This document shows, piece by piece, positions 20,525-45,798 of a stretch of 64,000 nucleotides of DNA. The notes below the pieces were generated by a model that saw only the letters and a program-made list of their open reading frames with translations, was not told the DNA's origin and did no database searches. Where the stretch lies: assembly GCA_028687575.1 (NCBI GenBank), contig JAQTZW010000001.1:294098-358097 (forward strand), written 5' to 3'. This DNA comes from Gallionella sp. GTDB taxonomy: Bacteria > Pseudomonadota > Gammaproteobacteria > Burkholderiales > Gallionellaceae. Positions within the stretch are counted from its first letter, which is position 1. Every line of letters starts with the position of its first letter. The translations under genes and the position numbers were made by a program.

Positions 20525-22072
20525 TTATGCTTTCAGTCTGAGGACGGTTGCGACGAGACGGCGAGCGATCTTTCGTTCATCCACTTTCAGGGTGGTCCAT
20601 GCCCATCCGCCAAATAGCAAAAGTGCTGCCATGCAAAACAAGGCTTTGAGGCTTAGGGGGTCTATGGCGGCAGCAATCAGTAGTGTGACAGTCATGACCA
20701 AGAGGAACTGGAGGCACTGTCTGATGGCCGGGGTCGCTTCCGGCAGCAAACGTCTGGAAATCAGTAGCAGCACGATGGCATCCACCGCCATGCGTGCCAT
20801 GCTCGCGATGGCGACACCAGTGATTCCGTATGTTTTTAGCAGTACCAGCAAGGCAAGTAGATATAGCGGCAGTTCAGCTAGGTGCAGTTTGGCGACCAGT
20901 TCCGGCCTGCCGTTGCCGTGTATCAGTGCAACCGGCACTTGTGCCAGGCCATTCATGAAGATTCCGACCAACAGCCATTGCACCACCGGCGTGCTGTGGC
21001 GGGCGAAGGTTTCATCGATCCACATCGTCAACACCTCGTGCGCGAAGGTGAAGAGTATCAACACGATCGGGAAGGTCGAATAAATTACATATCTGGTGCT
21101 TCGCTGGAATAGTTGCGCTGCCCGCAATCTGTCTTCCAGCAGATGTCTGACAAAAGTCGGGAACAGTACGCCAACCAGTGCGGCGGGAATGATTGCCAGT
21201 TTGATGATGAGCGAGAAGGGCGCGGCGTAATAGGTGATGGCTGAGACCGAGATCAGGGCGCTGATAAAGAAGCGGTCAAGATAGGAGAGGATGGGCCCGA
21301 TGATGTTGGAAACGGTAATCCAACCTCCAAACGAAAGCAGAGACCGGATGTTTTTCTGGGTGAATTTAACTTTGTCACGCAATGCAGGAAATGCTGCAAA
21401 GCAAATCGTCAGTAATCCGGCGAATTCGATGATACGTCCGGCTAGTAAGATGGATGTCAGTGAAAGTAAGTCGTGAGAAAAGGGTAATACCAGTAATGGC
21501 CCGATAAAGCTGAAAATTCCCATCGGGATTTTGATTAGATTGATGGAGCCGAAACGGTGCAGTGCCTCAAGAAAGCCGCTCAATGCGGCAGTGCAGATAA
21601 CCACGGGCAGGCAGATGGCCAGTAGCTGTAAAGCCGGCAATGCCTCGCTTTTTAATCCATCGGAAGTCTTAAGGAGGTGTTCGATTAGCCAAGGTGAACT
21701 AGTGAATAATAATAAGGTGCCGACCAGGCTGGACATAAATATGACTGTGAGTGCGGTCCAGAAGATGGCCGGTACCTCAGCGCTGTGCTGCGAACTGACC
21801 TTTTCGGCAACCAGTTTCGTTATCGCACGACCTATTCCCAAGTCGAATAATCCGAAATAGCCGGCGACAACCCATATGAGTGTGAAAATCCCAAAGCGGT
21901 CGGCACCGAGGGCGAAAATCATCACCGGTATGGCATACAACGCAGCCAGCAGCGGGATGCCTTGGCCGAGTAGGTTGAAAATGGCGCTATGAGCCAGTTT
22001 TCTGCGGTGGGATAAACCGCTATTCAATCGGATGACTGAGCCGGCAGCTTTTCTGATGAGATGAAATTTCAC
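20525..22072 (-). CDS. Polysaccharide flippase (Wzx/MATE-like)
   Basis: 515 residues from GTG 22072. About 12-14 hydrophobic helices; begins RRKLAHSAIFNLLGQGIPLLAALYAIPVMI with the family-typical FGLFDLGIGRAITKLVAE in the early loop. Likely flips undecaprenyl-linked oligosaccharide across the inner membrane. Overlaps the upstream methyltransferase gene by 4 bases, so the two are co-expressed, divergent from the main polysaccharide operon. Confidence 0.85.
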   Translation of the reverse strand: MKFHLIRKAAGSVIRLNSGLSHRRKLAHSAIFNLLGQGIPLLAALYAIPVMIFALGADRFGIFTLIWVVAGYFGLFDLGIGRAITKLVAEKVSSQHSAEVPAIFWTALTVIFMSSLVGTLLLFTSSPWLIEHLLKTSDGLKSEALPALQLLAICLPVVICTAALSGFLEALHRFGSINLIKIPMGIFSFIGPLLVLPFSHDLLSLTSILLAGRIIEFAGLLTICFAAFPALRDKVKFTQKNIRSLLSFGGWITVSNIIGPILSYLDRFFISALISVSAITYYAAPFSLIIKLAIIPAALVGVLFPTFVRHLLEDRLRAAQLFQRSTRYVIYSTFPIVLILFTFAHEVLTMWIDETFARHSTPVVQWLLVGIFMNGLAQVPVALIHGNGRPELVAKLHLAELPLYLLALLVLLKTYGITGVAIASMARMAVDAIVLLLISRRLLPEATPAIRQCLQFLLVMTVTLLIAAAIDPLSLKALFCMAALLLFGGWAWTTLKVDERKIARRLVATVLRLKA

Positions 22073-25472: not shown

Positions 25473-26750
25473 ATGCTGATTACGTTGTCTAGTGTCTTGG
25501 TGTCTTTTTTTGTGTGCTATTTTTTGGTTCGGTACCAGGGGTTTCATGCTCGGTTCTCGCATGATCATACCGAAGCCGGGCCGCAAAAGTTTCATGCTCA
25601 ACCTACGCCGCGTATCGGTGGGGTAGGTATTTTCCTTGGGGTCATCGCAGCCTATGCTTATGTCTGGTTGAGTTTCCCGAATGCAGAATGGGTTGCAGAA
25701 TTTGGTTTCCTCGTACTGGCTTCACTTCCCGCGTTTGCCGGCGGTTTGGTTGAAGATTTGACCAAGCGCGTCAGTGTCCTAAAACGACTGATATTGTCGA
25801 TGGTTTCGGCATGTGTTGGTGTCTGGCTGCTTGATGCCGTAGTCACACACCTTGGATTTTTCCTACTGGATTGGATGTTCCAGTGGTCGTTCTTTGCCAT
25901 CGTTTTTACGGTATTTGCAGTGGGTGGGGTGGTCAATGCCGTAAATATTATTGATGGTTTTAACGGCATCGTCAGCGGTTTCGCTGGATTCATGTTGCTT
26001 GCGATTGCAATCGTATCGCTGCAGTTGGATGATATTTTTCTATTGAAAGCCTCGCTGGCCATGCTAGGCGCGATGCTGGGATTTTTATACTGGAATTATC
26101 CTTACGGAAAAATATTTCTAGGTGATGGTGGTTCGTATCTGGTCGGATTCTGGTTGGCTGAAATGGCGGTGCTTATCGTTGCGAGGCATCCTACCGTGTC
26201 GCCTTGGTTTGCTGCATTGCTATTGATACATCCGGTCTGTGAAACCCTGTTTTCTGTCTATCGCCGGAAGTTGCTTTACGGGAAGTCTCCTTGGCATCCG
26301 GATGGTTTGCATCTACATACTCTGATATTCAGGCGCTTAAATCACATCCAGTGGGCATCAAGCGATGCGCGTCACAAGGTTCATTGTAATTCCATGACAG
26401 CCCCATACTTCTGGGTGCTGAAGGCTGCTACGGCACTGCTGGCGGTGTTGTTTTGGAATAATTCTTTTGCGCTAATTCTTTCAACAATGATGTTTGTCAT
26501 GCTTTATGTGTGGCTATACTGGCGCATCGTGAAATTCAGAACGCCACGCTGGCTAGTCAGGAGGGATAGAAGAGGTTCGCGTGTGCGGGAACCTGGCGCG
26601 ACGCGCGACAGGCGGGCACCCTACAGATTTGGCTTTATACAGTTTAGATTGCCTCGTTGGGTGAGACGAAATCGTCGCCGCTTGAGTGAGGGAGAAATGG
26701 TTGTATATGACAGGCGCATGACTGACAAAAGACGTAACACAAATGAATAA
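25473..26750 (+). CDS. WecA/MraY-family undecaprenyl-phosphate sugar-1-phosphate transferase
   Basis: 425 residues. Multi-helix enzyme that starts the repeat unit by moving a HexNAc-1-P onto undecaprenyl phosphate. Catalytic motifs: PTPRIGGVGIFLG (substrate loop), NAVNIIDGFNGI (Asp pair region), YPYGKIFLGDGGSYLVGF (DDG-like GDGG), and HPDGLHLHTLIFRRL (HxH loop). After the last helix (~345) comes an odd, strongly basic 60-residue tail with repeated R(R)xRR (VRRDRRGSRVR; VRRNRRRLSEGE; DRRMTDKRRN), not typical of WecA. Confidence 0.88.
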   Translation: MLITLSSVLVSFFVCYFLVRYQGFHARFSHDHTEAGPQKFHAQPTPRIGGVGIFLGVIAAYAYVWLSFPNAEWVAEFGFLVLASLPAFAGGLVEDLTKRVSVLKRLILSMVSACVGVWLLDAVVTHLGFFLLDWMFQWSFFAIVFTVFAVGGVVNAVNIIDGFNGIVSGFAGFMLLAIAIVSLQLDDIFLLKASLAMLGAMLGFLYWNYPYGKIFLGDGGSYLVGFWLAEMAVLIVARHPTVSPWFAALLLIHPVCETLFSVYRRKLLYGKSPWHPDGLHLHTLIFRRLNHIQWASSDARHKVHCNSMTAPYFWVLKAATALLAVLFWNNSFALILSTMMFVMLYVWLYWRIVKFRTPRWLVRRDRRGSRVREPGATRDRRAPYRFGFIQFRLPRWVRRNRRRLSEGEMVVYDRRMTDKRRNTNE

Positions 26751-26752
26751 GT

Positions 26753-26761
26753 GGGGGGGGG
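26753..26761 (+). repeat. G9 homopolymer upstream of manC
   Basis: Nine consecutive G, 2 bases after the initiating-transferase stop and 83 bases before the manC ATG. Long enough to slip in replication; could alter transcription or leader structure. Confidence 0.6.
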
Positions 26762-26844: not shown

Positions 26845-28260
26845 ATGTCTCTGAATGAAAGTGCGATTTTTGCAGTGATTCTGGCGGGAGGAACCGGCAG
26901 TAGGTTATGGCCTTTGTCGAGGCAGAACTGGCCTAAGCAGTTTTTGACACTGGATGGTGACGTATCGTTGCTTCAAACGACCATAGATCGCTTGGCGGGG
27001 TGTATTGCTCCCGAGAATGTTTTGATTGTTACCCAAGAGTCGCATGCAAAAGGTGAGGCATATCATGCGTTGCGTCCCTATGCTTCGCTATTTGAACCGG
27101 TCGGGCGCAATACCGCACCGGCTATTGCTCTGGCTGCGGCAAATCTGATGTTGAATGGTGATGACCCGATTATTGTTGTGTTGCCGGCAGATCATGTCAT
27201 TAAGGACGCAGCGAATTTTCAATTGCGTCTGAAGTTGGCAATCGAGGCTGCTAACCAAGGGAAACTGGTTACATTCGGTATTCAACCCACTAGGCCTGAT
27301 ACGGGGTTCGGTTACATCAAGGCGCATTCATCCGGGGCATCAGAAGTCTTGCAGGTTGAGCGTTTTACTGAGAAACCCACACTGCAAATTGCTGAACAGT
27401 TTCTTGCGGAAGGTAATTATTTCTGGAATTCCGGCATGTTTGTTTGGCGAGCTTCGGTGATTCTGAGTGAGATCAGGGAGCATCTCCCCGCGGTTTATCA
27501 GGTGGTGCAGGATATTGTCGCAGAAAGTGGCCAGTCCGGAGATTTTCAAAGTGCCGTAGAGAAATACTTTGCTTCCATGCCATCCGTCTCTATTGATTAC
27601 GGGGTGTTGGAAAAGTCAGCCAATGTCTCCTTGGTGCCTTGTGATATTGGTTGGAATGACGTTGGTAGTTGGCACGCGGTACATGAGATTACCAACAAGG
27701 ACCAGCATGGCAATGCAGTGTTGGGAAATGTCATTGCTATTGATTGCAAAAATAGCCTAATCAGATCGGAGAAGCGTCTGGTCGCAGCGATTGGGCTTGA
27801 AGATGTCTGTGTGGTTGAAACTGCTGATGCCATTCTTATTGCTAAAAGCGATCAGACGCAGCGTGTCCGGGAAGTTGTTGATGCGTTAGAGCGGCGCGGT
27901 GCTTCGGAGCATATCACGCATGTGAAAGTAAATCGTCCTTGGGGTAGCTACGCCGTGCTTGAAGAAGAGCAGAGTGCTTTCAAAATCAAGCGTATTGAAG
28001 TGGCCCCAGGGGCAAGGCTCAGCTTGCAAAGCCACGGTCAGCGTTCGGAACATTGGGTCGTGGTGTCCGGCACGGCTACCGTGACCAATGGAGAAGAGGT
28101 TTTCACCATACATAAGAATCAGAGTACTTATATTCCTATCGGAACCAAGCATCGCCTTGAGAATCGCGGTGCTGAGCCCCTGCATATCGTAGAAGTTCAG
28201 GTTGGCGAATATTTGGGTGAAGATGATATCCGGCGTTATGAGGATAATTATGGCCGTTAG
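26845..28260 (+). CDS. manC: Mannose-1-phosphate guanylyltransferase / mannose-6-phosphate isomerase
   Basis: 471 residues. Makes GDP-mannose from mannose-1-P and GTP; the C-terminal cupin is the type II phosphomannose isomerase half. N-terminal nucleotidyltransferase motif LAGGTGSRLWPLSR, FTEKP, sugar-site NYFWNSGMF, and SIDYGVLEK. Isomerase half from about 355: VNRPWGSYAVLEE, SLQSHGQRSEHWVVVSGTA (metal His), and TYIPIGTKHRLEN. Shows that the polymer contains mannose or a GDP-mannose-derived sugar. Confidence 0.95.
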   Translation: MSLNESAIFAVILAGGTGSRLWPLSRQNWPKQFLTLDGDVSLLQTTIDRLAGCIAPENVLIVTQESHAKGEAYHALRPYASLFEPVGRNTAPAIALAAANLMLNGDDPIIVVLPADHVIKDAANFQLRLKLAIEAANQGKLVTFGIQPTRPDTGFGYIKAHSSGASEVLQVERFTEKPTLQIAEQFLAEGNYFWNSGMFVWRASVILSEIREHLPAVYQVVQDIVAESGQSGDFQSAVEKYFASMPSVSIDYGVLEKSANVSLVPCDIGWNDVGSWHAVHEITNKDQHGNAVLGNVIAIDCKNSLIRSEKRLVAAIGLEDVCVVETADAILIAKSDQTQRVREVVDALERRGASEHITHVKVNRPWGSYAVLEEEQSAFKIKRIEVAPGARLSLQSHGQRSEHWVVVSGTATVTNGEEVFTIHKNQSTYIPIGTKHRLENRGAEPLHIVEVQVGEYLGEDDIRRYEDNYGR

Positions 28261-28334: not shown

Positions 28335-29807
28335 ATGAGCAATGCCAGAGCGTTGTGGCGAGAGAAGGCTCAACTGTGGGCTTTTTTTGCTTTAATTGTT
28401 TTTGCTCCGTTACCTCTGGGCGGGAACAGGCCGTGGGCGTTGGCGTTGCTGGGTTTATTCACGGGCAGTTTGCTGTTGTTGAATATTTGGCTGGGGGGGG
28501 GGTGCCAGAATATCTTGCGGGAGCGTTTGCTGCGAGTCCCGCTGATTGCGTCGCTGCTGTGGATTTTGTTGCTGGCAATACAGCTTGTTCCTTTGCCTAT
28601 TGCGTGGGTTGAGGTGCTGGGTCGAAGAGAGTTTTACGGGCCGATAAGGCATGGTGGTGAATTCATACCCATTTCTATAGATGTTTATTCCACACGTCTA
28701 TATCTCGCGAAGGCATGCATTCTTAGTGCTGTGTTCTGGTTGGTGATTGTGCTGGTTAATTCTCGTCGGAGACTGAAGTGGCTGGCGCGGATTATTGTTT
28801 TTTCTGGCTTGTTGCAGGCTGTGGTTGGTATCTTTTTGATGGCCACTGGAACGACCTTTTCAATGTTCTTTGTGGAGATGTCCAATCCGCGCGGGCATGG
28901 GACATTTGTATCGCCCAACAATTTCGCAGGCTATCTGGAACTTACACTGGCAGTCGGTATCGGCTATATGATTGCCAAACTGGATGGTCATGCTGTTTCA
29001 AATTGGAGAGAACGTTTGCATGGCTGGCTCACGGTTCTTATTAGTGAGAAGGCCTTGTTGCGACTATCCTTAATCATCATGGTGGTAGGCTTGGTCGCAA
29101 GTCGTTCGCGCATGGGGAATGCCGCATTCTTTGCAAGTCTGTTAATAGTCGGAACGTTGGCGATTTTTCTGATCAGGCAAGCGGCGAAAAATGTGCAGGG
29201 CGGTCGTGAGAAGAATACTTTGCAGGTCATGATGGTTTTCATCGCCAGCTTGGTCGTGCTAGATGTTTTTATTATTGGCGGAGTTGTCGGCGTTGAAAAG
29301 GTGGTTCAGCGAATTGAAAATACTAATATTGCACTTCTTAACAATCAGCAGGCTGGAAACGCTTCAGGGAGGATTCATCTGCAGGAGCAGTCACTGGAAG
29401 AGCGTGGGGAAGTCGCAGAAGTTTCGCTTCGACTCATAAGGGATTTTCCCTGGATGGGGACCGGTGGCGGAACATTTCATCTTGCCTTTATGCATTATCA
29501 GCCATTGGAAATGAAAGGTTATTTCGATCATCCACATAACGACTTTATTGAATTTCTTAGCGAAACGGGGGTTGTGGGTGGGCTGTTATTACTGGCAATT
29601 TTGTTGCACAGTATAAAATGTTCAGTGTTGCAGTTGATTAGGAGTCATGATCAATATGCAAGAGGTATGGCTTTTGCCAGTCTAATGGGAGTGATTTCGC
29701 TATTAATACATGGTGCCGTAGATTTTAATTTTCAAATTCTAGCCACCTCCATATTGTTTATGGTTGTAGTGAGTCTGCCGTACTTGAGTATATTATTGAA
29801 ACGCTGA
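28335..29807 (+). CDS. Wzy/O-antigen-ligase-like polysaccharide polymerase
   Basis: 490 residues, about 10-12 membrane helices. Wzy_C domain with the large periplasmic loop: RLIRDFPWMGTGGGTFHLAFMHYQ then GYFDHPHNDFIEFLSETGVVGGLLLL, the conserved H-N segment. Probably polymerises the repeat unit in the periplasm; a ligase role cannot be excluded by sequence. A G10 run encodes Gly-Gly-Gly at about residues 54-56, close to the N-terminus, so slippage would abolish nearly the whole protein. Confidence 0.83.
   Translation: MSNARALWREKAQLWAFFALIVFAPLPLGGNRPWALALLGLFTGSLLLLNIWLGGGCQNILRERLLRVPLIASLLWILLLAIQLVPLPIAWVEVLGRREFYGPIRHGGEFIPISIDVYSTRLYLAKACILSAVFWLVIVLVNSRRRLKWLARIIVFSGLLQAVVGIFLMATGTTFSMFFVEMSNPRGHGTFVSPNNFAGYLELTLAVGIGYMIAKLDGHAVSNWRERLHGWLTVLISEKALLRLSLIIMVVGLVASRSRMGNAAFFASLLIVGTLAIFLIRQAAKNVQGGREKNTLQVMMVFIASLVVLDVFIIGGVVGVEKVVQRIENTNIALLNNQQAGNASGRIHLQEQSLEERGEVAEVSLRLIRDFPWMGTGGGTFHLAFMHYQPLEMKGYFDHPHNDFIEFLSETGVVGGLLLLAILLHSIKCSVLQLIRSHDQYARGMAFASLMGVISLLIHGAVDFNFQILATSILFMVVVSLPYLSILLKR
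28493..28502 (+). repeat. G10 homopolymer inside the polymerase gene
   Basis: Ten consecutive G, reading TGG CTG GGG GGG GGG TGC in frame. Insertion or loss of one G would frameshift at about codon 56 of 490. Candidate contingency locus. Confidence 0.65.
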
Positions 29808-29863
29808 GTATTTCAGGTACAATCCGGCGCACAGTTGTTTTGAATTTATTTCGGGGGAAAGTC

Positions 29864-31039
29864 ATGTTACATAAATATTCTGCTATTTCGGTTGCTGTGA
29901 TCGGAGTACTTTTTTCATTATCGTCATCAGCTGTCGAATTTGAGCCGGCTCAGACGAATGCGGGTGGTTTTGAAATAACTCCTTCCGCACGTTTATCTAT
30001 CGGTCGCGATAGTAATGTCGGGTTGACTAACGCTGCGCAAACTGCCACTAATTTTACAATGCTGGAGCCAAGTGTTGAAGTTGCGTTGCCGACCCATGGT
30101 CAGTTGTATGGGGCGAAATACCTCGGGAGATTGGTTCGGTATTCGGGCGGCACAACAGATAATTACAACGATCACAGCTTTAATGTTTTTGCAGATAATG
30201 TCTGGTCATCTAGGTTTAAAACGCTTGTGGATGTTAACTATCTCAAAGGGCATGATGGGAGAAATGCTTTACTTTTTAAAAACAAAGAGCTTTTTCACGC
30301 AACAGGCTTCAATGTTATGGGGCATTACGGCGCGGAAGGTGCGCAGGGACAGTTTGAGTTGTCAGCAGGCCAAGTTTCCAAGCGTTACGATACAAACAAT
30401 AGTGGGGCTACCCAGCTTTATGACAACAATCGGACTGATTTGATAGGAACATTCTTTTATAGAGTGGCTCCGGCAACACAGATGTTTGTCGAGGCAAGGA
30501 ATTCTAAGTTTAGTTATGTTGTGGCTTTGCCGGGAAAGAATCTTGATAGCACTGAGCAGGGCTATATGCTTGGCGTAAAATGGGACGCTACAGCCAAAAC
30601 TACGGGTAATATCAAGCTGGGTTCAATGAAGAAGTCTTTCAATTTGGGCCAGTTGCCTTCTGGTAGTACTGCTGTTTGGGATGTGGGTATTCAGTGGCTG
30701 CCCAAAACTTATTCAAAAGTAGATTTCAAGCTGCAACAAAGAGCAAACGAATACGGTGGTGTTGGTAGTTTTATTATCAGTAATGATAGCAGCCTCGCGT
30801 GGGCTCATGACTGGACTAGCTATGTTACGTCCACGTTGTCGGTTGGTGATGGCTCCGATAAATTTCAGGCATCAACTCGTACCGACAAGCGTCAGACCTA
30901 TGGGGCGCGTCTGACGTATGGTTTCAGGAGTTGGTTGAGAGTGGGCGTTGAATATCAACACAGTCGGAGAACTTCAACTGTTCCAGCAGTGGCTTACACT
31001 AAGGCTGTTACGATGCTGACCTTGGAAGGTTCTTTGTAA
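29864..31039 (+). CDS. Outer-membrane beta-barrel of the polysaccharide locus (EpsL-like)
   Basis: 391 residues from ATG 29864 with GGGGGAAA upstream; the track start 29840 adds residues before the signal peptide. Signal SVAVIGVLFSLSSSAVE, then TPSARLSIGRDSNVGLT as in putative exopolysaccharide barrels of the EpsL/BBP2 type. The rest has alternating hydrophobic strands and ends in LTLEGSL. Likely an outer-membrane pore or scaffold for export. Sits between the polymerase and the Wza-like gene. Confidence 0.78.
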   Translation: MLHKYSAISVAVIGVLFSLSSSAVEFEPAQTNAGGFEITPSARLSIGRDSNVGLTNAAQTATNFTMLEPSVEVALPTHGQLYGAKYLGRLVRYSGGTTDNYNDHSFNVFADNVWSSRFKTLVDVNYLKGHDGRNALLFKNKELFHATGFNVMGHYGAEGAQGQFELSAGQVSKRYDTNNSGATQLYDNNRTDLIGTFFYRVAPATQMFVEARNSKFSYVVALPGKNLDSTEQGYMLGVKWDATAKTTGNIKLGSMKKSFNLGQLPSGSTAVWDVGIQWLPKTYSKVDFKLQQRANEYGGVGSFIISNDSSLAWAHDWTSYVTSTLSVGDGSDKFQASTRTDKRQTYGARLTYGFRSWLRVGVEYQHSRRTSTVPAVAYTKAVTMLTLEGSL

Positions 31040-31047
31040 TTTAATTC

Positions 31048-31719
31048 ATGCTCAAGTTGTTTATGGAAATCCTGTTTTCGGGTAGGGGGTGGCTGTTGTA
31101 CGATTTGAATGCTTGCATACGCAAACTCTGGGCGGTGTTTCGAGGTTGTGGTCGTATTCTTTCGGCTGCATTGATATTGATGGTTATCGCCGGCCTGCAG
31201 GGAGTGTCATGTGGCGCGGTCGAGTTGGTCGGTCAAGAGGCGCAACGTATAGGGGGTGCCCCTAATTTCCACCTTGGACCTGGAGATGTCATCAGCATTA
31301 CGGTGTACGGCGAGGAAGATTTGTCGCGTCAGCATTACCGTTTGCCGGATTCTGGTTTAATAATGTTCCCATTTGGCGAAGTTGCAGCATCGGGCTTGAC
31401 GATTTCTGAGCTTGAGAGTCGAATTGCCGATGGCTTGCGCGGTGGATATTTGGTGAATCCCCGAGTGTCGGTAAGTATTGAGGAGTATCGTCCTTTTTTC
31501 ATTAATGGCCAAGTGGCTCAACCAGGTGCTTATCCTTACAAGAGTGGACTTACGGTGAGAATGGCCGTTTCAATAGCGGGTGGTTTTAAAGAGAGAGCTT
31601 CTGAAAGTAAGATTTATGTCGTTCGTGAATCAGATCCTACTCATCAGCAAGTCAAGATAAGTCTGGATGGGGAAGTGTTCCCAGGGGATGCCGTCACTGT
31701 TGAAGAAAGTTTCTTTTAA
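31048..31719 (+). CDS. Wza-like polysaccharide export protein
   Basis: 223 residues. A long N-terminus with a hydrophobic signal (ILSAALILMVIAGLQGVSCGAVE). Poly_export domain starts FHLGPGDVISITVYGEEDLSRQHYRLPDSGLIMFPFGEV, then an SLBB segment FFINGQVAQPGAYPYKSGLTVRMAVSIAGG. Short form lacking the C-terminal outer-membrane helix of Wza, so the barrel encoded upstream may supply the pore. ATG of the next gene overlaps this stop by one base. Confidence 0.87.
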   Translation: MLKLFMEILFSGRGWLLYDLNACIRKLWAVFRGCGRILSAALILMVIAGLQGVSCGAVELVGQEAQRIGGAPNFHLGPGDVISITVYGEEDLSRQHYRLPDSGLIMFPFGEVAASGLTISELESRIADGLRGGYLVNPRVSVSIEEYRPFFINGQVAQPGAYPYKSGLTVRMAVSIAGGFKERASESKIYVVRESDPTHQQVKISLDGEVFPGDAVTVEESFF

Positions 31720-33920
31720 TGCAACATATTGAAAATATCATTACTGAAAAATCCAGTCAGACAGAAGATGGTGCTATGGATTTGCTGGCTTACTGGCGAG
31801 TAATACAGCGTCGTAAGTGGGGGATATTAGGTTTATCTTTCTTTATCACGCTGTTGGTTGTTGTCATTGTTTATATGATGACGCCGATTTATAGCTCTTC
31901 AGTATCAATGCTGATTGAGCAGAATAAGTCCAAGCTTGCTTCTATGGACGATATTTATTCTGGTCAAAGTTCAGATAAAAATTATTATCAGACTCAGGTC
32001 GAGATGCTTCAATCTCGTGCGCTCAGGGAGGCTGTTGTTGATCGTTTGAAATTGACGAAGAGTTCATTGTTCAACGCACCTGTTAAGCCATCCCTAGTTG
32101 GCTCGCTCAAGACTGCACTAGGCATGGGCGCTGCCAAGGATGTGGTTCGCGATGAGCGGAGAGTACGAGAGGGGGTTGTGGCAGCACTTTCCGGGATGAT
32201 TAAAATTGAGCCGTCCAAGAATAGTCAGTTAGTCCGGATCGTTGTCGAGTCAGTAGATAAGGATTTAGCAGCTACCGTGGCTAACGCTGTTGCCGAAACC
32301 TATATTGATCTGGATCTCGAGGCGCGCTACAAGATGACCCAGAAGGCGACAAGTTGGATGAATGTACGTCTTGTTGCTTTAAAAGATAATCTGGATAAGT
32401 CAGAGCGTGAGTTACAGACTTACCGAGAGCAGCACAATATTATTGATACCAAAGGATTGGAACTCGGCGGGGCGACTAGTCAATTAGGCTCGGCCTTGAG
32501 TAATCTGGCGGAGGTTAGGCTGGCGCGTGCGCAAGCACAGACTAATCTTGAACAAGTCCGGCGCGCAAAAGGTAATGAGGTATCTCTTCCTATCGTTCAG
32601 CGTAATCCCTTGGTGGCAGGCTTGATCAGTGCAGTGGCCGATCACGAACGGAAAGTTTCTGAATTATCTAATCGCTATGGACCTCAGCATCCGAAGTTAA
32701 TTCAGGCGCAGGCCGAGTTAAAACAGGCAAAGGCCAACCTTCATGCTCAAGTCGCCGATGTTGTAAGTGGCTTTGAGCGTGAATATGAGATGGCCAGAGC
32801 GAATGAGGGTGCCATTGCAGGCGCAGTGGCTGAGGCAAAGAACGCCATTCAGGGTTCAAACCGCAAAGAGTATGAGTTGACGGCCTTGGAGCGGGAGGTT
32901 AAAACCAATCGCGAACTTTACGATATGTTTATGGGGCAGTTAAAGGGAACTGCGGCGGTAGGCGATATGCAGACTGTGGTCGCGCGCGTAGTTGACCCGG
33001 CAATTGTTAGTGATGCTCCTATCAAGCCTAGAAAGTTATTGATTGCCGGCTTTACACTTTTAGTTAGCTTGATGCTGGGCGTGGCTGTGGCATTTCTTCT
33101 CGAGTATCTGGATAACTCTGTTAGGTCGGCTCAAGATGCAGAGCGAAAATTGGGCTTGCCGCTTTTGGCTGCTGTTCCGGACATTGAATTGCCCTCAGGG
33201 AAAAGCGCCGGACTTTATTATCGAGATGCGCCGCAATCGTTGTTTGCTGAAGCAATTAAAACGATTCGTACCGGGATTTTGCTATCGGGTATTGATCATC
33301 CTAAGAAGACTTTGCTGGTTACCTCTTCTGTGCCTGGAGAAGGGAAGTCAACCGTGGCAATTGATTTGGCGTTGGCGCATGCTCAGACCAAACGAGTGTT
33401 GCTGATTGATGCTGATATGCGTAGGCCTTCTATTGCCAAGGTTCTTGGCTTGGATAATACCCATCCAGGATTGTCTATGCTGGTGTTGGGAATGGTGAAG
33501 CTTGAGAATTGCGTATACAAGATAGAGGGGTCTACGCTTGACGTGCTAACGGCGGGCAGTATTCCTCCGAATCCATTGGAGTTAATTCTGTCCGAAAAAT
33601 TCAAAGGTTTGCTTGCTGAGCTATCTAAGCAATATGACATCATTATGATTGATTCGCCGCCAGTGCAGTTGGTGAGTGATGCCGTAGTGTTGGCCAGTAT
33701 GGCTACAGGGGTTGTTTTTGTGTTGAAAGCAGACTCAACACCATTCCAGCTAGCTCGTAGAGCGATTTATTCTTTGCAAAGAAGTGGCGCTAATATGTTC
33801 GGTGTGGTGCTGAATAAGGCTAATTTCAGAAACGAGGAATATTACGGTGGTTATGGCAAATATAATTACCATGCCTACTATGGCGAAGATGCCGATAAGA
33901 AGTCTGGCAAGGTTGGTTGA
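31719..33920 (+). CDS. Wzc-like chain-length determinant with tyrosine autokinase domain
   Basis: 733 residues. N-terminal Wzz domain with helix 1 (WGILGLSFFITLLVVVIVYMM, ~30-50) and helix 2 (LLIAGFTLLVSLMLGVAVAFLLEYL, ~430); between them a coiled-coil periplasmic region (~190-400). C-terminal BY-kinase: Walker A SSVPGEGKSTVA, Walker A' RVLLIDADMRRPS, Walker B IIMIDSPPVQLVSDA. The end carries the tyrosine cluster EEYYGGYGKYNYHAYYGED used for autophosphorylation. Controls chain length and export with the Wza-like protein. Confidence 0.93.
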   Translation: MQHIENIITEKSSQTEDGAMDLLAYWRVIQRRKWGILGLSFFITLLVVVIVYMMTPIYSSSVSMLIEQNKSKLASMDDIYSGQSSDKNYYQTQVEMLQSRALREAVVDRLKLTKSSLFNAPVKPSLVGSLKTALGMGAAKDVVRDERRVREGVVAALSGMIKIEPSKNSQLVRIVVESVDKDLAATVANAVAETYIDLDLEARYKMTQKATSWMNVRLVALKDNLDKSERELQTYREQHNIIDTKGLELGGATSQLGSALSNLAEVRLARAQAQTNLEQVRRAKGNEVSLPIVQRNPLVAGLISAVADHERKVSELSNRYGPQHPKLIQAQAELKQAKANLHAQVADVVSGFEREYEMARANEGAIAGAVAEAKNAIQGSNRKEYELTALEREVKTNRELYDMFMGQLKGTAAVGDMQTVVARVVDPAIVSDAPIKPRKLLIAGFTLLVSLMLGVAVAFLLEYLDNSVRSAQDAERKLGLPLLAAVPDIELPSGKSAGLYYRDAPQSLFAEAIKTIRTGILLSGIDHPKKTLLVTSSVPGEGKSTVAIDLALAHAQTKRVLLIDADMRRPSIAKVLGLDNTHPGLSMLVLGMVKLENCVYKIEGSTLDVLTAGSIPPNPLELILSEKFKGLLAELSKQYDIIMIDSPPVQLVSDAVVLASMATGVVFVLKADSTPFQLARRAIYSLQRSGANMFGVVLNKANFRNEEYYGGYGKYNYHAYYGEDADKKSGKVG

Positions 33921-33933
33921 TGCCAGAGTTTGA

Positions 33934-34665
33934 ATGATAGATCTTCACTGCCACTATCTGCCCGCCATTGATGACGGTTCACAATCAATGGCGGAATCTC
34001 TTGATCTTGCAAGGGCTTCTGTCGCAGATGGAATTACCCATGCGGTGATGACCCCGCATATTCACTTGGGGCGCTACGAGAACCTTCGTTCTACGGTTGT
34101 TGCCGCTACCGCAGAGTTCCAGTCGGCACTGATGGAGGCTCATATTCCCTTGCAAGTCTACCCCGGTGGAGAGGTGCGATTAAGCTCGGATATTCTCGAT
34201 TTGCTTGAGCAGGATGAGATTCCTTTTCTGGGTGATTTGGATGGCTATAAGGTACTGTTGCTGGAGTTTCCCTACAGCCAAATTCCAGTTGGAACAGAAA
34301 AGTTGTTGCGCCGCTTGATTGATTTTCGTATCCGGCCATTGATTGCACATCCAGAGCGTAATAAGGTCGTGCTGGCTAATATCGAAAGGATATCGCCGTT
34401 TGTCGGGATGGGTTGTTTACTTCAAGTTACTGCCGGATCTATAACTGGGGCGTTTGGCAAGCCAGTTCAACATGTTGCTGATTTATTGCTGGAACGCGGT
34501 TGGGTATCAGTAGTTGCATCCGACGCGCACAATTTACTGCATCGGGCACCTATTATGACGCAAGCAAGGAGCTTGCTGCGTGCACGTGGTTTCAGTGAGT
34601 TGGCAGACCGGATGACCATGAGGCTACCCGCAAAGATTTTGGGTTTGAAGGTCGGGGACATTTGA
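33934..34665 (+). CDS. CpsB/YwqE-type PHP tyrosine-protein phosphatase
   Basis: 243 residues. PHP-fold metal phosphatase: DLHCHYLPAIDDG (metal HxH and Asp), TPHIHLGRY, GGEVRLS, LLLEFPYSQIP, LIAHPERN and VASDAHN provide the metal ligands. Expected to remove phosphates from the tyrosine tail of the Wzc-like kinase encoded just upstream. Unusual for a proteobacterium only in that low-molecular-weight Wzb is the more common partner. Confidence 0.92.
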   Translation: MIDLHCHYLPAIDDGSQSMAESLDLARASVADGITHAVMTPHIHLGRYENLRSTVVAATAEFQSALMEAHIPLQVYPGGEVRLSSDILDLLEQDEIPFLGDLDGYKVLLLEFPYSQIPVGTEKLLRRLIDFRIRPLIAHPERNKVVLANIERISPFVGMGCLLQVTAGSITGAFGKPVQHVADLLLERGWVSVVASDAHNLLHRAPIMTQARSLLRARGFSELADRMTMRLPAKILGLKVGDI

Positions 34666-44511: not shown

Positions 44512-45798
44512 ATGGAAGAACGCAGTAACAAAACAATCATGAGCAGTGTGCTCTTTTTGGATATTGTCGAATATTCAAAAAAGTCTGTCTCAGGCCAAAT
44601 TTCCTTGAAAGAAAGGTTCAATACCTATCTTGCCAAGGCAATTCAGGACGCACCCGTCATTGATCGCATCATTCTGGATACCGGTGATGGCGCTGCAGTC
44701 AATTTCTTGGGGGATGTAGAAGATGCCCTGAAGGCTGCGCTCAGTCTGCGTGAAAGTCTGCTTAATGAGGAACCCGACCTTGAGCCAGAGTTGCTGGTAA
44801 GAATTGGCATCAATCTAGGGCCGGTCAGGTTGATGCGAGATTTAAATGGTCAACCGAATATCGTTGGTGATGGTATTAACGTTGCACAACGCGTAATGGG
44901 CTTTGCGGATCCGAGCCAGATACTGGTTTCTAGGTCATATTTTGATGCGGTATCACGTCTCTCTCCCGAATATGCCGGAATGTTCCACTATCAGGGTTCG
45001 CGTACCGACAAGCACGTTCGTGAACATGAGGTTTACGCCATTGGTTATCCGGGGGACTATACGACCAAGCGGTCGGCAGCCCATTCGGAAATAGATCAAG
45101 CTCAGAAAACTGGCGTTTGGGGGCAATTCCAGGCAGCTTGGGGCGCTTTGCTGGCGGGAGGGCATAATGATTCCCAAGGTTTTCTTGCACGCCTCAAAAA
45201 AGCTGATGGCAAACAGCAGGCTTTTTATGCAATCGCTTTGATAGTGCCTGTGTTGCTTATTGCCGTGATGTTCGTGAAAGATGGGGGGGGTGATAAGCAG
45301 CAAGTTACCAAAGCCGAAATCATGGAGCCATCGAGTGCGGTGCCTAGTGCGCCTACAATCAGCACGCCAGAAGTGGTGCCAGTCGCAAAGGAACATAGTG
45401 TTCCCGTAGACCAGAAAGCTCAGCCTGGCAAAGTAAACACTGAAGTGGTTCAGAAATCACATCCTACTACTGGAAAGACGAGTGCCTCGTCCAAAACGAC
45501 TGAAATCAAGTCTCAAGGCGTTAAGTCTGGCGTGTCCGGATCGGACAAGACGGCGGCTCCCGCAAATGATGCGCCAGTCGTAGTAGATGCCTACATGTTG
45601 GTCAATTGCGTGGATGGCGCACAAGTATTTCTGGATGGCCTGCTTAAGGGAACTGTCACCAATGGCGCTTTGACGCTTACTGCTAAACCTGGCAAGCATA
45701 AATTGATTATTAGTCATACCAGTTTTGGGTTGTACACTGACGAAGTTGAGCTTGAGTCGGGGAAAACTGAACGGGTGAAGCCTAGAGTGTGTAGGTAG
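44512..45798 (+). CDS. Class III nucleotidyl cyclase-like protein with membrane helix and PEGA-like domain
   Basis: 428 residues. N-terminal cyclase homology domain (~8-180): metal-binding FLDIVEYS, second acidic site DTGDGAAVNFLGD, GINLGPV, and GDGINVAQRVM, which retains Asn and Arg. Then a linker, one membrane helix (FYAIALIVPVLLIAVMFV, ~240-258) preceded by basic residues, a Pro/Ser/Lys-rich stretch (~270-350), and a C-terminal PEGA-like beta domain (VNCVDGAQVFLDGLLKGTVTNG). Cyclase would be cytoplasmic and PEGA periplasmic. A G8 run encodes the residues just after the helix. The kinase gene follows in the same direction. Confidence 0.82.
   Translation: MEERSNKTIMSSVLFLDIVEYSKKSVSGQISLKERFNTYLAKAIQDAPVIDRIILDTGDGAAVNFLGDVEDALKAALSLRESLLNEEPDLEPELLVRIGINLGPVRLMRDLNGQPNIVGDGINVAQRVMGFADPSQILVSRSYFDAVSRLSPEYAGMFHYQGSRTDKHVREHEVYAIGYPGDYTTKRSAAHSEIDQAQKTGVWGQFQAAWGALLAGGHNDSQGFLARLKKADGKQQAFYAIALIVPVLLIAVMFVKDGGGDKQQVTKAEIMEPSSAVPSAPTISTPEVVPVAKEHSVPVDQKAQPGKVNTEVVQKSHPTTGKTSASSKTTEIKSQGVKSGVSGSDKTAAPANDAPVVVDAYMLVNCVDGAQVFLDGLLKGTVTNGALTLTAKPGKHKLIISHTSFGLYTDEVELESGKTERVKPRVCR
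45283..45290 (+). repeat. G8 homopolymer inside the cyclase-like gene
   Basis: Eight consecutive G encoding Gly-Gly just after the membrane helix. Shorter than the other G tracts; slippage would remove only the periplasmic part. Confidence 0.4.

Follow-up and report, generated by a model that had tools for sequence, protein, structure and literature searches.

A wzy-like gene in an exopolysaccharide cluster of a Gallionella genome carries a tract of exactly ten G in frame, close to its 5′ end. We regard this G10 as a real, mutable homopolymer of ordinary chance origin, with a probability of about two in three (0.66); it encodes part of a loop that is not conserved in this Wzy-like membrane enzyme. 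A chance origin accounts for the evidence no less well than a switch kept by selection. The sequence-only reading of the 64,000-nucleotide stretch that was analysed (the window) had called the tract a classic slipped-strand site and a candidate phase switch. The first description holds to the extent that the length is within the published hypermutable range. The evolved switch is not supported: the tract lacks conservation in orthologs, the genome shows no clear excess of long G runs, such runs are no commoner than expected at polysaccharide loci across the genus, and mismatch repair is present.

The tract occupies positions 28493–28502 of the forward strand (flanks ...TTTGGCT-GGGGGGGGGG-TGCCAG...). 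It consists of the third base of Leu53 and the GGG codons of Gly54–56; codons 53–57 read CTG GGG GGG GGG TGC. It is the longest homopolymer of the window, followed by a G9 (26753–26761) and a G8 (45283–45290), and is one of two G10 runs genome-wide. At ten G, the reading frame is open from its ATG at 28335 to 29807 (forward strand, 490 codons). Sequence and translation thereby confirm both the in-frame position at codons ~54–56 of 490 and the intact gene that had been reported. It had also been claimed that gain or loss of one base truncates the polymerase. In silico, this is correct: a change of one or two G in either direction yields predicted products of 69, 70, 91 or 92 residues instead of 490, which would comprise at most the first two helices and some out-of-frame residues. 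Tracts of more than seven G form a hypermutable class with 1e-5 to 1e-2 mutations per division (PMC4235727), and a Neisseria survey set the cut-off for phase variation at G ≥9 (PMC5953494). Because G10 is longer than these published cut-offs, the run is probably slippage-prone. The proposed mechanism is physically plausible, and any G10 is likely to slip, if only at a low rate. Actual slippage rates depend on host repair, and the genome has uninterrupted genes for both MutS and MutL. Loss of mismatch repair was considered and rejected, given these two intact genes.

The 490-residue protein is a member of the Wzy_C/O-antigen ligase-polymerase superfamily, with a PF04932 domain (E=2.8e-22), a WaaL-like fold and the conserved C-terminal GxGGGTF and HxHND motifs. 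Its sequence profile matches the WaaL structure 7TPG (E=3.9e-7), and the predicted model (pLDDT 82, pTM 0.86) matches the same structure in Foldseek (E=8.5e-8). This structure, a ligase, is the sole close solved one. The G10 codes for part of a loop that forms a low-confidence gap of the model between helix 2 (residues 33–52) and helix 3 (residues 67–84). Fold and family do not separate a Wzy polymerase from an O-antigen (WaaL) ligase. The likeliest role, predicted from gene context, is that of an exopolysaccharide polymerase, because the neighbours are WecA-like, manC, EpsL-, Wza-, Wzc-, CpsB-like and Wzx-like genes; this context suggests a polymerase, which would join undecaprenyl-linked repeat units supplied by its own cluster, more than a lipopolysaccharide ligase. 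The earlier designation "polymer polymerase" is therefore likely from gene context.

The gene belongs to a wecA/manC/wzy/epsL/wza/wzc/cpsB cluster on the forward strand. Upstream lie a WecA-like undecaprenyl-phosphate sugar transferase (Glycos_transf_4, 25473–26750; PF00953, E=3.1e-30) and manC, encoding a mannose-1-phosphate guanylyltransferase/mannose-6-phosphate isomerase (26845–28260; TIGR01479, 570.9 bits, above cut-off). Downstream follow an EpsL-like outer-membrane β-barrel protein (29840–31039; PF10082, E=6.4e-24, with the EpsL model below cut-off), a Wza-like polysaccharide export protein (31048–31719; PF02563, SLBB), a Wzc-like chain-length determinant/tyrosine autokinase (31719–33920; PF02706 and PF13807, with TIGR01007 above cut-off) and a CpsB/CapC-like phosphatase (33934–34665; PF19567, E=1.5e-49). 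A Wzx-like flippase (Polysacc_synt) is encoded on the reverse strand at 20525–22072 (PF01943, E=4.5e-21). The G9 at 26753–26761 (forward strand) is untranslated and is a possible second mutable site. It begins two bases past the stop codon of the WecA-like gene and lies 84 bp upstream of the manC start, and no promoter-like site was found around it. The host genome is a 2.9-Mb draft of 29 contigs that is 99.97% complete. A link to the iron stalks was also considered; it is not to be assumed, because the clusters named in the literature (xag, sfz/sfb) are absent from the genes of this cluster.

To place the tract against expectation, G runs were counted by pattern searches on both strands, with composition and Markov training taken from a 464-kb sample of the genome. 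Runs of eight or more G number 42; 7 of these reach nine or more, and 2 reach ten or more (51, 9 and 2 as overlapping matches). Markov models of orders 1–5 expect 12–49, 2–12 and 0.4–2.7 runs per genome, respectively, and those of orders 3–5 expect 22–28, 4.7–6.5 and 1.0–1.5. Runs of eight or more are thus up to about twofold over orders 3–5, and the counts for nine or more and ten or more fit; over orders 1–5 there is no clear genome-wide excess of either of the two longer classes. In a 2.9-Mb genome of ~53% GC (the value of the window), a G10 is to be expected by chance about once or twice. "More than chance" is true only locally, in the window, where six overlapping G8 matches compare with 1.97 ± 1.59 in shuffles. 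Synonymous codon shuffles of 272 genes (344 kb) gave 0.23 expected G10+ runs against 1 observed, and 0.44 against 0 for C10+. When the synonymous codons of the wzy-like gene itself were shuffled, a G10 arose in 294 of 20,000 trials (1.5%); GGG makes up 30% of the glycine codons in this gene versus 17% in the sampled genes. The six G9+ runs other than the G10 in wzy are located in a recX-like ORF, in a sensor-kinase-like ORF, in the T arm of a tRNA-Leu, just ahead of a start codon and in intergenic DNA. Surface genes thus do not dominate among the G9+ runs. The two further Wzy_C genes of the genome are on contigs free of G9+ runs. In the 464-kb sample, A/T runs drop sharply above 7 with a maximum of 8, and G/C runs taper slowly to 10; A/T tracts seem to be purged and G/C tracts not.

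A single-protein query of the genome collection returned no relative, and relatives were recovered by an alignment-based scan. Relatives in the public record are Gallionella and Gallionellales metagenome-assembled genomes (MAGs), together with Ferriphaselus sp. R-1 at ~50% identity. None of the aligned orthologs of the same genus (49–65% identity) has a G run at this site. The loop between helices 2 and 3 differs in length and residues among them, and a Gly-Gly in this loop, where present, can be encoded by GGC GGG. The tract is not retained as the orthologs drift in sequence; among the genomes compared (one per species), the G10 at wzy codon 54 is private to this lineage. Gallionella sp. STC_80 (G050) also has a G10 in wzy, but at another site.

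Two of the seven G9+ runs of the genome, the G9 at 26753 and the G10 at 28493, are 1.7 kb apart in the wzy cluster; the Poisson probability of two such runs in a 17-kb span is ~9e-4, for a site that was picked post hoc because of its run. In STC_80, three of eight G9+ runs fall within 8 kb in the homologous cluster (P ~3e-5 before correction for ~10 genomes). These G9–G10 sites (L079:9218, 11356 and 17235) are in manC, wzy and the gene after cpsB. In a further relative (G060), an in-frame G9 lies in the variable C-terminal tail of the WecA-like gene. Across ten orthologous clusters (152 kb, with the present genome excluded), 4 G9+ runs compare with 0.56 expected (P ~0.003), and three of these four come from STC_80. 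The 35 other Wzy_C loci of the genus contain 1 in 585 kb versus 2.2 expected. Genus-wide, Wzy_C loci thus show no surplus of G9+ runs; the orthologous cluster of STC_80 alone stands out. The concentration of G9+ runs in the cluster is one hint for a switch, with a signal that comes from one relative, STC_80, and it may reflect GGG-rich codon usage. We also observed that in the G060 cluster (L248, C83, minus strand) the manC frame ends after ~30 residues, with wzy immediately next; judged from sequence, manC seems to be lost or truncated there.

These data bear on several readings of the tract. It could be a contingency locus, in which slippage at the G10 toggles Wzy, and hence long-chain polysaccharide, at high frequency, and selection, for instance from phage or from alternating attached and free life, maintains it. 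We consider this unlikely. An in-frame G10 early in a surface-polysaccharide gene, placed such that a change of one or two bases truncates the product, is what such a locus looks like. The length beyond the published thresholds (PMC4235727, PMC5953494), the additional G9 1.7 kb upstream and the independent runs in STC_80 (including the one in wzy) and in the WecA-like gene of G060 point the same way, and homopolymers are known to switch genes of capsule synthesis, meningococcal siaD being an example cited in PMC8893959. However, the tract is not conserved in orthologs, G9 and G10 tracts are not in excess genome-wide, and they are no commoner than expected at the other Wzy_C loci of the genus. 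None of the tracts checked in the exopolysaccharide clusters of relatives leaves its gene in a frameshifted OFF state, as all are in frame. The wzy run of STC_80, moreover, has a coding reason, because it encodes the conserved GxGGGTF motif. Broader still is the proposal that phase-variable poly-G tracts arise anew at differing sites in Gallionella exopolysaccharide clusters, namely wzy codon 54 here and wzy, manC and a downstream gene in STC_80, so that matrix formation in this uncultivated lineage of iron oxidisers would be a stochastic on/off trait; we hold this to be rather improbable.

A codon-usage or mutational bias, with a G-rich coding strand and a GGG-rich, horizontally variable cluster, would, in some species, make G runs more numerous in this cluster with no switching function involved. 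Such a bias falls under the chance reading and overlaps it; taken by itself it is a tentative explanation. GGG accounts for 20–32% of the glycine codons in the transferase, manC, wzy, epsL and wzc versus 17% in sampled genes, and for 36–56% in the run-bearing genes of STC_80, in which wzc has 12%. The excess in STC_80 is, however, partly the runs themselves, which makes the argument partly circular, and 8 of 11 related clusters are free of G9+ runs. A length error in the assembly, with a true tract of 9 or 11 G, is very improbable. The genome is a draft of 29 contigs, and homopolymers are error-prone, but at ten G the frame continues through 430 more conserved codons to a full-length Wzy_C protein. 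Because 9 or 11 G would break this frame, ten G is at least the majority state.

The closest known systems are the poly-G and poly-C loci of Campylobacter jejuni and Neisseria, such as siaD. As in those loci, an in-frame tract of at least nine G/C lies toward the 5′ end of a gene for surface polysaccharide, and a change of ±1 gives a truncated product. Unlike them, the present tract is known from one genome sequence alone, run numbers are at the genome background, and Gallionella is a free-living iron-bacterium lineage, whereas theirs are host-adapted. C. jejuni is without mismatch repair, and its tracts mutate at rates of 4e-4 to 4e-3 (PMC4235727); the Gallionella genome has MutS and MutL. 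Orsi et al. 2010 reported that poly(A) and poly(T), not poly(G), are over-represented in prokaryotes with a 5′ bias (PMC2831843). The G10 resembles their tracts in its closeness to the 5′ end and in the early inactivation that a frameshift would cause. It differs from them in its setting, in that A/T runs above 8 are absent (464 kb) and G/C runs reach 10. Literature searches brought up no account of phase variation in Gallionellaceae, nor of homopolymer contingency loci in free-living freshwater iron bacteria.

Other long tracts were noted in the genomes searched. In Gallionellales GWA2_54_124 (G006), three sites have the arrangement CTTGAC-N17-(T/C)TA followed by a long C tract, of 12+, 23 and 26 bases respectively. 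Two of the sites precede chemoreceptor-like genes that contain PAS domains, and one precedes a Gcw_chp gene. One of these copies contains Ns in the tract. A fourth site of the same geometry, with C12, is found in another genome (G027), ahead of a gene whose product begins with a signal-peptide-like stretch. The sites of this geometry are at L071:5559–5607, L071:13193–13244, L254 (reverse strand, ~1500) and L255 from 1501. A reversed-pattern control gave no match in 76 genomes. From their arrangement, these CTTGAC-N17-(T/C)TA-C(12 to 26) sites look like candidate promoter-linked poly-C contingency tracts, and as a lead this class is worth more than the G10 finding. At another site (L256 from 1501; G042:C241:19789–19831), TTGACA runs straight into C10 and on into GCCGTGC-TACGGT, which leaves a mostly-C spacer of 17 bases between a −35-like hexamer and a weak −10-like hexamer. 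The fim genes of Bordetella have poly-C promoters, which this site resembles. A G9 at L033:1501–1509 (G000:C13:83193–83201) stands immediately 5′ of TATG where a small outer-membrane-barrel-like ORF begins, and a change in its length would alter the ribosome-binding region. C/G runs of 23–24 at a contig end (L072) or beside Ns (L073:2682) in MAGs are probably sequencing or assembly artefacts.

On our preferred reading of the G10 as a chance homopolymer, the tract would have arisen in a gene rich in GGG glycine codons. At ten G, replication slippage would be more frequent than in average sequence, so that rare Wzy-off cells with frameshifted products of 69–92 residues, together with revertants, are to be expected in a growing population. 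Both the rate at which the tract slips and the failure of polymerisation are inferred. The tract need not have been retained for switching. It does offer a cheap and concrete test site. If it switches, it would explain how clonal populations of iron oxidisers mix matrix-making and bare cells, and homopolymer contingency loci would be extended to free-living freshwater iron bacteria.
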